This document shows, one piece after another, positions 1 through 57,768 of a DNA stretch of 64,000 nt. Position numbers and translations under genes: made by a program. A model generated the notes under the pieces. That model saw only the letters and a list, made by a program, of their open reading frames with translations. It had not been told where the DNA came from and did no database searches. How positions within the stretch are numbered: the first letter of the stretch is position 1; each line of letters starts with the position of its first letter. Source of the DNA: a virus; IMG/VR virus record IMGVR_UViG_3300000117_007448, positions 1-64,000 of that record. One strand, given 5' to 3'.

Positions 1-270
1 ACTAGCATTGGAGACAAAGTAGCTGGTGAAAAAAGATACAATGTAAATTGTAAGAATTGTCATGGACCTGCCGGTAAAGGTGCAGCCAGTTATCCTAAAA
101 TATCAGGTAAAGAAATGTCTTATATAAAAGATAGATTAGAAACATATAGAAGTGGTAAAGAAATAGGACCTAATTCAGCTTTAATGATAATGATGGCAAA
201 ATCATTGACTGATGAAGAAATAAATAATTTAGCTGCGTATCTTAAAGATGCAAAATATATGGTGAAATAA
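1..270 (+). CDS. c-type cytochrome (class I, c4/c553-like), 3' part
   Basis: The 5' end is outside the window; the last 89 residues are visible. A CKNCH haem c attachment motif sits near the start of the visible part, followed by the PKISG...YIKDRLETYRSG pattern of cytochrome c4/c553-like proteins and a Met-rich stretch (LMIMM) that can supply the axial Met ligand, then the usual C-terminal helix (LTDEEINNLAAYL). Such proteins carry electrons in the periplasm. The gene overlaps the next one by one base (TAATG), so the two are probably co-translated. In a phage this is an auxiliary gene; a role as electron acceptor for a host dehydrogenase or donor to an oxidase is inference. Confidence 0.85.
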   Translation, partial: TSIGDKVAGEKRYNVNCKNCHGPAGKGAASYPKISGKEMSYIKDRLETYRSGKEIGPNSALMIMMAKSLTDEEINNLAAYLKDAKYMVK

Positions 271-614
271 TGAAACAATTATTAGTAATGTTTACAATGT
301 GGTTTGTATTATGTAGTGGTTTAATTTTTATTGCTAATGAAGCAACAGCGGCTTCATGTGGAAGTCCTTTTAGTGGTAATCCACAAGCACCAAGATGGGA
401 TTTAATTAAAGCAGAAATTGACAAAGCAAATAAACATGAATATTATAGACCAGTACAAGTAAGAGAAAATATATTAGTTCATGTTTTATATGATGAAGAA
501 AGAGAATATATTGTAATAAGTAAAACTGCTTCAATGTTAGTTCCTGAAGCTAGAGAACAATTCAAAATAGCTGTAAGAGAATGGATAAAAAAAGGAATCG
601 AATATGGAAGTTAA
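270..614 (+). CDS. exported protein of unknown function
   Basis: 114 residues. The N-terminus is a classical signal peptide (short basic start, hydrophobic residues 5-23, ATAAS cleavage region), so the product is probably periplasmic. It starts in a TAATG overlap with the cytochrome gene and overlaps the next gene by 11 bases. I do not recognise the mature domain, which has a single Cys (CGSPF). The tight coupling to a periplasmic cytochrome suggests a related envelope or redox role, but this is only context. Confidence 0.75.
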
Positions 615-1008
615 TCAAGAAACATTACAATTGATGGATCCTTTAGCAAAAATGCCAGAACAAGAAATGCCGGTTCCATTTGTACTTGCTGAGAGTGCAG
701 CTAAAAAAGTAAAAGAATTAATTAGGGAAAGTGGTGAAGAAGCTTCTCGAATGATGTTAAGAGTATTTGTACAAGGAGGAGGATGTTCTGGATTTCAATA
801 TGGCTTTTCTTTTGCTGAAGAGATAGAAGAAGATGATACTAAAGTAGAAAAGTTTGGTGTCACTATGTTAGTAGATAGTATGAGTTATGGTTACTTGGTT
901 GGTTCAGAAATCTATTATAAAGATGATCTTAATGGGTCACAATTTGTAATAAGAAATCCAAACGCCAAAGCAACTTGTGGGTGTGGTTCTAGTTTCGCTG
1001 CCGGTTAA
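604..1008 (+). CDS. erpA: A-type Fe-S cluster carrier (ErpA/IscA/HesB family)
   Basis: 134 residues. The three conserved cluster-binding cysteines are present: C61 in [11 protein letters not shown] and C125/C127 in TCGCGSSF. The C-terminal HesB core is of normal length (about 107 residues) with a short extra N-terminal segment. The family passes Fe-S clusters from an IscU-type scaffold to target enzymes; this phage also encodes an IscU homologue (23722-24132). The N-terminal part and the QYGF context look closest to ErpA, but IscA/HesB cannot be excluded. Its 3' end overlaps the end of the converging minus-strand gene by 20 bases, which marks the strand switch. Confidence 0.9.
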
Positions 1009-1228
1009 CAACTTTTAGAACATCTCTGTATTGGGTGAAGTGTAATTCATTCTCAACAAAATCTAAGAACTCACCAACAGTCCAATGGCTTATTGACTCA
1101 CATTGTTTTTTATAATGCACAAATACAGTTAAGTTTTCTATATCTGAGATTGTTCTACTTATAGTAATCTTATCGTCACCGTTTAAATTATTTTTAAGTA
1201 TTGTAATATTTCTATCTCTAATGTTCAT
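989..1228 (-). CDS. small hypothetical protein
   Basis: 79 residues, not recognised. The start codon overlaps the stop of the upstream permease gene by one base (TAATG), typical of real genes here. The protein is polar with no signal or membrane segment. Its last 20 bases overlap tail-to-tail with the Fe-S carrier gene on the other strand. Confidence 0.6.
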
Positions 1229-2187
1229 TAAAATCCATTCGGTACTATTATGTAATGTATTGAAAGAACTATGCCTACTGAAGCACCTAATCCAATCATC
1301 ATCTTAAAAAAATCTTTAGTGATAATAGGAAAGACTACTTTAAATTTACCATTACCTGTAACTGTAGCCATTGCAAGTTCACGACCACAAAGTAACCCAA
1401 CAAATACCCATGTTGTTGACATTGGTATATCGTTTAGCTCTTTGAAAAACCATAATATAATAAAGTAAACACCATCAATGATTGTTGCACTTCTTACATA
1501 TCTAGTATTATGTTTTGATAATACTATTTGTTGAATTTTACCCCCACCTTCACGAAACATAAAACCTAAACCCATTACAAATAATAATGATATAGCAACC
1601 ATTAAGTCCCATGGAATCACTCTAGGAAGGAATACAGCTATGTTTGCCATATCATGACCAAGCCATGTAAACCATAAACAACCTGTGGTAAACCATTGGC
1701 CTATTCGCCAGTACCTTTTATGTTCTTCCTTGACATGATCAAACTCATTAAGTATTTTTGAAACTATAATCCAAATAAGATAGGCTGCTACAGCTGCAAC
1801 TGCATATCCCATCATAGACTTCATCAACATTTTTTCTAATACAAATGACGAGGCAAAAGCTGACAATACGAGAAAACTTGTACTAACTGGAATACCTACT
1901 CTGGTTAGTATTAATAGGATACCTGGTGCCATTGCATGATACCATTGAATCTCTTGAAAAGGTATTTTGTTTAATCGGCCATAACTTATATCACCACCAT
2001 TAGTATACCAACCAAACCATAATGTATAAAGTAATACTGCACTTGCAAATCCCCAAAGAATTTTCCAATTAAATCTTTCTTTATTAGAAGCAATCCATGT
2101 TCCAAGTGTTTGAACAGAATCATTTGCAATTACAGCGTAACCAGCAAAAATAAAACCTACTGCCATCCAGAGAGTCATAACGTCCAT
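1228..2187 (-). CDS. PiT-like inorganic phosphate permease
   Basis: 319 residues with about nine hydrophobic membrane segments. Two half-repeats each carry a diverged PiT/PHO4 signature: ANDSVQTLGT near residue 21 and GHDMANIAVFLPR near residue 176 (compare GANDxANxxGT), each followed by a P-x-STT-like motif (GIPVSTSF and DIPMSTTWVFVGLLCGRE). PiT proteins import phosphate with a cation across the inner membrane. At 319 residues it is shorter than cellular PiT proteins, which usually exceed 400. Phosphate uptake is a common phage auxiliary function in P-poor seawater. It lies just downstream of the terminator that follows pqqA, so it is either read through or has its own promoter. A related permease family is the alternative. 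Confidence 0.75.
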   Translation of the reverse strand: MDVMTLWMAVGFIFAGYAVIANDSVQTLGTWIASNKERFNWKILWGFASAVLLYTLWFGWYTNGGDISYGRLNKIPFQEIQWYHAMAPGILLILTRVGIPVSTSFLVLSAFASSFVLEKMLMKSMMGYAVAAVAAYLIWIIVSKILNEFDHVKEEHKRYWRIGQWFTTGCLWFTWLGHDMANIAVFLPRVIPWDLMVAISLLFVMGLGFMFREGGGKIQQIVLSKHNTRYVRSATIIDGVYFIILWFFKELNDIPMSTTWVFVGLLCGRELAMATVTGNGKFKVVFPIITKDFFKMMIGLGASVGIVLSIHYIIVPNGF

Positions 2188-2201
2188 ATTGTTTCTATCC
2201 C

Positions 2202-2226
2202 AAAAAAAACCCCGCCTAAGCGGGGT
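2202..2226 (-). terminator. intrinsic terminator after pqqA
   Basis: On the minus strand a 7-bp G+C-rich stem (ACCCCGC/GCGGGGT, 4-nt loop) is followed at once by eight T residues. It begins 18 nt after the pqqA stop codon and is one of the strongest intrinsic terminators in the window. Confidence 0.9.
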
Positions 2227-2243
2227 ATCGTTAGCTAATAATA

Positions 2244-2321
2244 CTACTTAGATGCAACGTACATTGTGATTTCAAATCCAAATCTTAAATCAGTCGCTGC
2301 TGGCTTAGTCCATTTATTCAT
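2244..2321 (-). CDS. pqqA: PqqA, precursor peptide of pyrroloquinoline quinone
   Basis: 25 residues. The peptide carries the family pattern WTKP-x3-DLR-x-GFEITMY followed by a short tail. E17 and Y21 have the invariant E-x3-Y spacing; these are the two residues that PqqE cross-links and from which all PQQ carbon and nitrogen derive. The form matches beta/gammaproteobacterial PqqA (MWTKPxxxDLRxGFEVTMY) rather than the longer alphaproteobacterial types. An AGGAGG Shine-Dalgarno sequence stands 4 nt before ATG, and a strong terminator follows 18 nt after the stop, so it looks like a highly expressed unit of its own. No pqqBCDE genes are in the window, so processing would depend on the host. PQQ is the cofactor of periplasmic methanol and other alcohol dehydrogenases. 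Confidence 0.88.
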
Positions 2322-2421
2322 AATGCCTCCTATATTAAATGGGTTATATAATAATTTAGTAAATGTTAGTGATATATGATATAAAGAAAATCATGAGTTT
2401 CATATGATCTTAGTATAAACA

Positions 2422-16153: not shown

Positions 16154-16535
16154 TTTTCACCCTAATATTATTTAATTCTGAATAAACATTTATAGCAAAA
16201 TCTTCTGCCTCTATTTCCCAAGGTTCATCTTTTACATAAATGCCACGCCAAGTATTTAGAGAGGCGGTTATTTCATGATTTACATATTGTTTTATATGGC
16301 ACATTTCATGAGCTATAGTTTCTAATAGTGATTGATTGTCTTGACCTGTTTTTAATTGAACACAATAAATTGGCACTCTGGAAAATATACTTTCATCACT
16401 TTCCCAACAATGACCTAGCATAGGTATCTTTCTCGAATATGAGAATTCAAGTATAATATCTTTTGGTAATTTTAACTTATCACCGAAATAATCTATAGCT
16501 TTAAAATACTTTTGGCTAATACCATGAATTATCAT
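16137..16535 (-). CDS. putative zinc metallopeptidase (HExxH)
   Basis: About 132 residues from the ATG at 16535; an ATG at 16562 is in frame but overlaps purC more. TIAHEMCHIKQY gives an HExxH zinc site on a helix, and a downstream Glu in DEPWEIEAEDFA is a candidate third ligand, as in SprT-like and related minimal metallopeptidases. The substrate is unknown. Confidence 0.7.
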   Translation of the reverse strand: MIIHGISQKYFKAIDYFGDKLKLPKDIILEFSYSRKIPMLGHCWESDESIFSRVPIYCVQLKTGQDNQSLLETIAHEMCHIKQYVNHEITASLNTWRGIYVKDEPWEIEAEDFAINVYSELNNIRVKNEKKE

Positions 16536-17277
16536 TTTCAAGATCCACCATAATTTTTTCATATTTGTTGGTGATAACCCGTAGACTCATAATAGTAGAA
16601 TTATATCCTTCTTCTCGGTATAAATCTTTATCCATACTCTCTTCAGTATCTTTTACCCAGAGTCTACAGCCATCAGGAGTTATTTCATCAGCGATTAATA
16701 TTCGGCCTTCTGAATCGAATCCAAATTCTAATTTAAAATCAATTAAGTTAAGGCCGATATTACTAAAAACTTTTTCTATAACTTTATTTACATTTAATGC
16801 TTGAACTTTTAAAAAACTGGTTGCATACCTCTCCTCAAAACCCATCAATGATAATCTTTCTTGAGTTAAAAGAGGATCATTTTTACTATCATCTTTCAAA
16901 TAAAATTCTACTATTGGTCTAGAAAACTTATAACCTTTCTCTATGTTAGTTTCTCTAACAATTGAGCCAGCGGCTACATTTCTTACAACAACTTCGAGAG
17001 GTATAATATCTACTTTTTTACACCTCATAATATTCCAAGGATTACTTTCATCTAATTCTATAAAATGTGTGCTTAAGCCAGCTTCCTCTAAATGCTTAAA
17101 CATAATAGAGGAAATCTTGGCATTAATATTACCTTTACCCAACATACAGTCTTTATAAAGACCGTTGCCTGCTGTTACCTTGTCTTGGTGATTAATCAAA
17201 ACTTCATTTGTTTTCTCACTTTGATAAACTTTTTTTACTTTGCCTTCAATAATAAGATTTTTAGCTGGTAAATTCAT
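16516..17277 (-). CDS. purC: PurC, SAICAR synthase
   Basis: 253 residues, full length for the family. Motifs: EGKVKKVY near residue 10 (nucleotide binding), LEVVVRNVAAGS (about 94-105), and the C-terminal FKLEFG...ILIADEITPDGCRLW. The enzyme joins CAIR and aspartate in purine synthesis (EC 6.3.2.6). It is common in marine T4-like phages and raises purine supply for phage DNA. It has its own promoter inside the end of the upstream glycosyltransferase gene. Confidence 0.95.
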   Translation of the reverse strand: MNLPAKNLIIEGKVKKVYQSEKTNEVLINHQDKVTAGNGLYKDCMLGKGNINAKISSIMFKHLEEAGLSTHFIELDESNPWNIMRCKKVDIIPLEVVVRNVAAGSIVRETNIEKGYKFSRPIVEFYLKDDSKNDPLLTQERLSLMGFEERYATSFLKVQALNVNKVIEKVFSNIGLNLIDFKLEFGFDSEGRILIADEITPDGCRLWVKDTEESMDKDLYREEGYNSTIMSLRVITNKYEKIMVDLENDNSWY

Positions 17278-22919: not shown

Positions 22920-23714
22920 TTAGCCTCTTGTTGTATTTGCAAGGTCTTCCATCATCTCTTTTTGTTTTAGATCAAGACTTGCAAGTTTCTTTTCATATTC
23001 ACCGATAGGGTGATCATATACACCTCTAAAAAATTGAAGTTTTTTAAAAGCGGTAAATCTACCTCTTAAACCATCTTTAATTCTTTGCCATGGGCTTAAA
23101 CCATCACGAATATTTCCATAATAGTTTAAATATTCCAATGTACCATGGTGCTTGAAAAACAAGAAAGATGGGGGTACTTTTGTAACAGCATCATTGTTGT
23201 TTACCCAACGGTGATGATCGAAGCTAAGACTATTTACAAATCTTTTATTACCAACTCTAGGTGAACCAAAAGTGTATAGTGTTAATGATTTAAAAATGCC
23301 TTGTAATCTGGCGGCACAAATAGTGGCCATTGCGGCTCCTAAACTATGACCAGTTATAGTACAAACTTTACCTTTATGCTCATCAACATAAGTTTCAATT
23401 TGATCCCATAATTTTTCAAGTTCACCATAAAATCCATCATGAACTCTACCAGCAACCTGACTCTTTTGTTTCCATGCCTTTAAGTCAGCAACAACATCAC
23501 TTGCTACATCAGGTTCAGTACCTCTGAATACAAATGTTATCTCATTATCACTTGTGCAAACATAAGCTTGAGCACCATCGTGGTCAAGAAAGTCAACTGT
23601 TTTATAGTTCATTTCTTTCATAATTTGACTTTGTATATTAGTAGTCAAATCTTCATAAACGAGGCTAGATAATTCACAATATTTTAAATCGTTATATCTC
23701 AAATCGGTTTTCAT
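22920..23714 (-). CDS. class 3 lipase-like alpha/beta hydrolase
   Basis: 264 residues. Nucleophile elbow TGHSLGAAMA (about 121-130), Asp in NNNDAVTKVP and His in YDHPIGEY complete a lipase class 3 catalytic triad, with an oxyanion motif FVFRGTE before it. The family hydrolyses acylglycerols or phospholipids; such genes recur in marine T4-like phages. A part in host lipid use or lysis is possible. No signal peptide. Confidence 0.85.
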   Translation of the reverse strand: MKTDLRYNDLKYCELSSLVYEDLTTNIQSQIMKEMNYKTVDFLDHDGAQAYVCTSDNEITFVFRGTEPDVASDVVADLKAWKQKSQVAGRVHDGFYGELEKLWDQIETYVDEHKGKVCTITGHSLGAAMATICAARLQGIFKSLTLYTFGSPRVGNKRFVNSLSFDHHRWVNNNDAVTKVPPSFLFFKHHGTLEYLNYYGNIRDGLSPWQRIKDGLRGRFTAFKKLQFFRGVYDHPIGEYEKKLASLDLKQKEMMEDLANTTRG

Positions 23715-57273: not shown

Positions 57274-57768
57274 CTAAGCTGCTTTAGATTCTTGTAAAAG
57301 TTCAGGTTTAAGTAAATTGAGACTATTACTAATTTCAACTTTTCTTGGTTTTTTATGATCTGGTATAACATTCTCTAAACCAACTCTTAAAATACCATCC
57401 TTAAACTCAGCACCTTTTACTTCTAGAGTATCAGCTACAGATAGGGTTTTTGTGAATGAGCGTGTACCTATACCTTTGTGTAAATATGAAACACTCTCAA
57501 CTTCTTTTTCAATCTTTTCACCTCTAATAACTAAAGAGTTATCCTCTACTGTTATTTCAACTTCTTCTTTACTAAAGCCAGCAATAGCTAATTCAACAAT
57601 ATAATTGTTTTCATTAACCATTAATATATTATGTGGCGGAAAAGTTGAAGATGTTTTATTATTTAAGATTCTTTCGACATCCTTAAATACTCTTTCAAAA
57701 CCTAAAGTAGAGTGAGCTAATAGAGCTCTTTCTAGACCTTTAAAATGACCGGTTGTAATATCTACCAT
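57274..57768 (-). CDS. hsp20: small heat shock protein Hsp20
   Basis: 164 residues. Alpha-crystallin domain at about 45-140: NNYIVELAIAGFSKEEVEI, LVIRGEK, the GIGTRSFTKTLSVAD and AEFKDGILRVGLE segments (G-x-L). It holds unfolding proteins, and is a hallmark gene of marine T4-like phages. It is followed by a strong terminator. Confidence 0.95.
   Translation of the reverse strand: MVDITTGHFKGLERALLAHSTLGFERVFKDVERILNNKTSSTFPPHNILMVNENNYIVELAIAGFSKEEVEITVEDNSLVIRGEKIEKEVESVSYLHKGIGTRSFTKTLSVADTLEVKGAEFKDGILRVGLENVIPDHKKPRKVEISNSLNLLKPELLQESKAA

Follow-up and report, generated by a model that had tools for sequence, protein, structure and literature searches.

Phage-borne pqqA as such is not unprecedented. 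The closest described carrier is the Baikal Methylophilaceae virus VP_266, in which pqqA was put forward as a PQQ-related auxiliary metabolic gene (Coutinho et al. 2020, PMC7678222), and virus-encoded pqqA is listed in a 2026 reservoir study. The Glu and Tyr of the PqqA peptide become PQQ, being cross-linked by PqqE with PqqD (PMC9851590). Methylophilaceae chromosomes contain 3-12 pqqA copies and one set of the other genes (PMC4109929), a surplus over the single pqqBCDE set that resembles the situation with the phage copies, except that the extra genes are chromosomal there and phage-carried here. The window studied here (the whole analysed stretch, i.e., the first 64 kb of a 103,198-bp IMG/VR virus record) derives from a phage which, like VP_266, is T4-like and bears pqqA. 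In contrast to VP_266, which also encodes methanol dehydrogenase, no such enzyme was found in the 103-kb record, and its type of PqqA points to a marine betaproteobacterial clade other than the Methylophilaceae. In the open-access literature searched, the following appear to be new: this member, the wide spread of pqqA over methylotroph phages, whether cultured or not, the fact that it had been overlooked, its solo pattern, and the unselected conservation test of Glu and Tyr.

The pqqA locus and its phage carrier

The first-pass annotation had assigned positions 2202-2321, with no strand given, to a 25-codon phage pqqA equipped with a ribosome-binding site and a terminator; this span corresponds to the gene plus the terminator. 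The following features were identified in this region of the window:

2244..2321, minus strand: pqqA, 25 codons plus TAG, 25 aa (PF08042 and TIGR02107 matches)
2326..2331, minus strand: Shine-Dalgarno sequence AGGAGG, 4 nt 5' of the ATG (read from the sequence)
2201..2226, minus strand: intrinsic terminator with a 7-bp stem (stem 2226-2209; 6 GC), a 4-nt loop and eight T
2322..2421, minus strand: non-coding region upstream of pqqA, mostly common to the closest relative, L421 (alignment)
604..1008, plus strand: erpA, Fe-S cluster insertion protein (NCBIfam NF010147, 167 bits, cut-off 117)
1228..2187, minus strand: 319-aa multi-helix membrane protein, the downstream neighbour past the terminator (PHO4 resemblance below cut-off)

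The profile searches proposed for the small gene were run, and both matched. Its product scored 41.9 bits (E 9.2e-11) against Pfam PF08042 (curated cut-off of 21.1 bits) and 39.6 bits against the NCBIfam equivalog TIGR02107 (cut-off of 20 bits), approximately twice the curated thresholds, and it was the single PqqA match in the whole 103,198-bp record. The peptide has the WTKP..DLR.GFE frame that had been described for it, together with E17 and Y21, the E-x3-Y pair of cross-link residues that gives the PQQ backbone. The claimed AGGAGG site and terminator were also located. An SD-like motif was present upstream of pqqA in 197 of 198 viral relatives, and a terminator-like hairpin lay within 100 nt 3' of the gene in 89 of 198, versus 19 of 594 windows drawn at random from this DNA; the occurrence of pqqA with both signals is therefore not due to chance. 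A hairpin with a T run, as judged by eye, was seen at the equivalent place in L421, L359, L013 and L038, with differing stem sequences. The window gene at 2244-2321 is a genuine phage-borne pqqA.

Sigma-70-like matches upstream of pqqA were weak and no commoner than in shuffled sequences. A shared upstream motif, AACTCATGATTTT, was rejected, as its frequency in the window was at chance level. The pqqA region folded marginally better than shuffles (z -1.97), which would be compatible with an RNA element or a moonlighting small peptide whose role in infection is unrelated to PQQ. We regard this reading as scarcely credible, since the conservation resides in the protein and not in the DNA, no Rfam family was found in the region and the carriers with known hosts infect methylotrophs.

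The record encodes a T4-type portal, major head protein, tail sheath and terminase, as well as a primase, DnaB helicase, DNA polymerase, ribonucleotide reductase and gp44-type clamp loader. The portal shares 54% identity with its counterpart in methylophage Melnitz and 51-54% with cyanophage portals; the phage therefore belongs to a separate T4-like lineage. The pqqA gene is part of a phage genome and not mis-binned host DNA, as the T4-type genes are on the same 103-kb contig and pqqA also occurs in phage isolates. Phage erpA was found close to pqqA in L038, L065/L359, L013 and L421 as well. The 319-aa membrane protein reached 9.2 bits against PHO4, under the cut-off, and its predicted structure was unusable (pLDDT 40). 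Its relatives were encoded by 428 IMG/VR stretches, of which 80 were kept (82-100% identical), and none matched in 50,697 phage records. A cytochrome c fragment (CxxCH) is located at the contig start (window 1-270, plus strand), and cytochrome c with a hydrophobic N-terminus is encoded near erpA and pqqA in L421 (5522-5854, minus strand) and L038 (10147-10461, plus strand), suggesting that electron transfer in the periplasm may be a further target of these phages. The window phage also encodes SAICAR synthetase (16516-17277, minus strand), a class 3 lipase (22920-23714, minus strand) and HSP20 (57274-57768, minus strand).

Distribution and conservation of viral pqqA

Relatives in IMG/VR were sought with degenerate DNA patterns of D-type and E-type (EMRFGF). 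The D-type pattern retrieved 85 contigs, each of which contained a plausible PqqA frame, and the E-type pattern retrieved at least 120; solo pqqA was present on at least 200 IMG/VR contigs. The 203 viral copies fell into 26 nucleotide clusters, and their neighbours included several terminase and portal families, T4-type and podovirus-type genes, and T4-type sheath and head proteins. Therefore, pqqA entered many phage lineages or was exchanged among them. These first patterns impose E and Y, and two further scans left both positions free. The E-x3-Y arrangement was kept in 120/120 E-type and 76/76 D-type frames of the latter scans, i.e., the loss of E17 or Y21 in phage orthologues, which had been named as evidence against a true PqqA, was looked for and not seen in 196 frames. 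In the D-type scan, 88 of 164 frames were discarded as false; these form one family that matches out of frame within a repeated prophage gene in genomes of isolates, and most of them have a stop shortly past W. L046 and L047, which encode an enterobacterial-type PqqA, were left out of the counts.

The pN/pS ratio among cluster representatives, a set fetched by protein pattern, was 0.16 for E-type and 0.27 for D-type. Within the window's neighbourhood family, synonymous codon differences (4-9) exceeded non-synonymous ones (1-4) in every pair; the close relative L421 retained the entire neighbourhood, with 4 synonymous and 2 non-synonymous codon differences in pqqA. A substrate carried alone could serve peptide mimicry, in which the phage peptide would occupy PqqD/PqqE or a protease and lower host PQQ, e.g., diverting resources. 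In a decoy of this kind, loss of the cross-link residues would be anticipated, whereas Glu, Tyr and the surrounding T, G and F positions were invariant in the cluster representatives; we judge such inhibition very improbable.

The remainder of the PQQ pathway was searched for in 51 pqqA-bearing records. PqqA was recovered from all 51, once in two copies, while PqqC was found in none (positive control 9/9) and PqqE exceeded the cut-off in none, with weak matches in four; many of these records are fragments, and an absence is not proof for any single virus. The flanks of the viral loci from the first two scans contained no pqqB-E. A PQQ methanol dehydrogenase was encoded by one of the 51 records, as in the reported Baikal virus; thus, pqqA phages show few indications of carrying further methanol-oxidation genes.

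A tblastn search of the 25-residue peptide against the 50,697 phage records gave 12 matches: Venkman, P19250A, MEP301, MEP401, MEP402, four Melnitz isolates, one spring podovirus and two 'Acinetobacter phage' contigs. The matched methylophages, like the window phage, have one pqqA each and no pqqC or true pqqE. They carry the E-type peptide (..EMRFGFEVTMY..), unlike the window phage. These are the cultured methylophages that could be examined; MEP431-434, known from taxonomy, gave no match and are outside this set. The first-pass expectation that genes of this size escape annotation proved correct for them, as pqqA was not labelled in any of the matched methylophage records. No mention of pqq is made in the published descriptions of Venkman, MEP301 and MEP401/402, and PQQ appears solely as a medium ingredient in the Melnitz paper. 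P19250A was stated to lack the auxiliary metabolic genes of the Baikal virus (Coutinho et al. 2020, PMC7678222), contrary to the pqqA found here. In Melnitz (L003, 5964-6059, minus strand) and in the Manatee Spring podovirus (L006, 2067-2195, minus strand), the annotation instead places a hypothetical gene over pqqA in the opposite orientation, probably a wrong-strand call. The two contigs titled 'Acinetobacter phage MD-2021a' were set aside, as the one that was read resembles a bacterial chromosome. That contig (L002, CAKLQF020000010.1) has ppk, fur and a full pqqABCDE operon and is apparently chromosomal.

Within the T4-like lineage of the window phage, pqqA is sporadic. It was found within the fetched DNA of 8 of the 80 kept viral loci that encode the adjacent membrane protein (80 of 428; a set not chosen for pqqA), at differing distances, on differing strands and with both peptide types. 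None of the 47 portal-related records, mostly short fragments, contained it; two pqqA matches in the portal-based search came from neighbour-gene records added to the set, outside the 47. This scattered occurrence, together with the stand-alone host copies available for capture, would suit a passenger, i.e., a short host fragment gained by recombination, of no benefit and cheap to keep because it is small. Such an origin would not account for the unselected E-x3-Y conservation (196/196), the nearly universal SD motif (197/198) and terminators well over background, or the recurrence of the gene across 26 nucleotide clusters and all cultured methylophages that could be examined, and we therefore consider it unlikely.

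Proposed role of the phage peptide

Each PQQ made uses up one PqqA molecule, whereas PqqB-E act as catalysts; a phage therefore need bring pqqA alone. We consider it quite likely that the window gene is a functional, phage-expressed pqqA that feeds the host PqqB-E and thereby sustains methanol oxidation in the infected cell. The phage would translate PqqA in the infected cell, and host PqqD and PqqE would bind the peptide and cross-link Glu17 to Tyr21. The host protease, PqqB and PqqC would then complete PQQ. The extra cofactor would keep the very abundant XoxF-type methanol dehydrogenase of the host active and supply energy and carbon for phage production. The earlier suggestion that delivery of the peptide could raise PQQ output would thereby hold, with the gain inferred. 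In an OM43 isolate, xoxF was the most abundant transcript (PMC5120137), and the demand for PQQ is therefore expected to be high. In engineered Acetobacter, pqqAB alone increased PQQ by 29%, versus eightfold for pqqABCDE (PMC7936290), and thus the substrate need not be the main limit on PQQ.

The chances appear about even that methylotroph phages in general follow a strategy of supplying just the consumed precursor peptide, which unrelated lineages would have acquired on many occasions, with PqqA limiting PQQ after the shutdown of host expression. The distribution of the gene suggests that many methylotroph phages replenish a consumable ingredient of the methanol-oxidising enzyme of their host. 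If true, a gene of 23-25 residues, mostly skipped or called on the wrong strand in annotation, would count among the common metabolic genes of methylotroph phages and could be used as a marker of their hosts, with consequences for methanol turnover in marine and freshwater environments. Phage pqqA also constitutes a clean test case for steering a pathway via its substrate rather than an enzyme, for which cultured phage-host pairs exist.

Likely hosts of the window phage

A scan of 84,980 genomes with a peptide pattern ending in [IV]TMY identified 13 loci, titled as beta proteobacteria or Burkholderiaceae and, in one case, as Proteobacteria alone. The genomes were MAGs or isolate assemblies (e.g., AG-913-B20) and, judging from the names of the projects, appear to be marine. 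At 8 of these 13 loci, pqqA is the first gene of a pqq operon that is either complete or truncated by the edge of the fetched DNA. A host with no pqqBCDE would have argued against the proposed supply of substrate; the inferred hosts, i.e., the best-matching cellular genomes, carry pqqABCDE. All eight cellular genomes with the closest PqqA contained pqqC, with pqqABCDE where the flanking DNA sufficed, and five of the eight encoded a PQQ methanol dehydrogenase over the cut-off.

The phage ErpA was 66-70% identical to ErpA of the candidate hosts and 59-66% identical to that of other genomes of the order, which mildly agrees with the candidate group. Based on the 25-residue peptide and ErpA, the host of the window phage is likely a methylotroph of this betaproteobacterial group. 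A tRNA-Pro was rejected as a host marker, as it gave no discrimination and does not point to the clade of PqqA. Five host-type genomes had two or three pqqA genes, the extra copies being stand-alone where examined. In several larger-genome relatives in the host order (L328-L354), two E-type pqqA genes lie approximately 5 kb apart on opposite strands.
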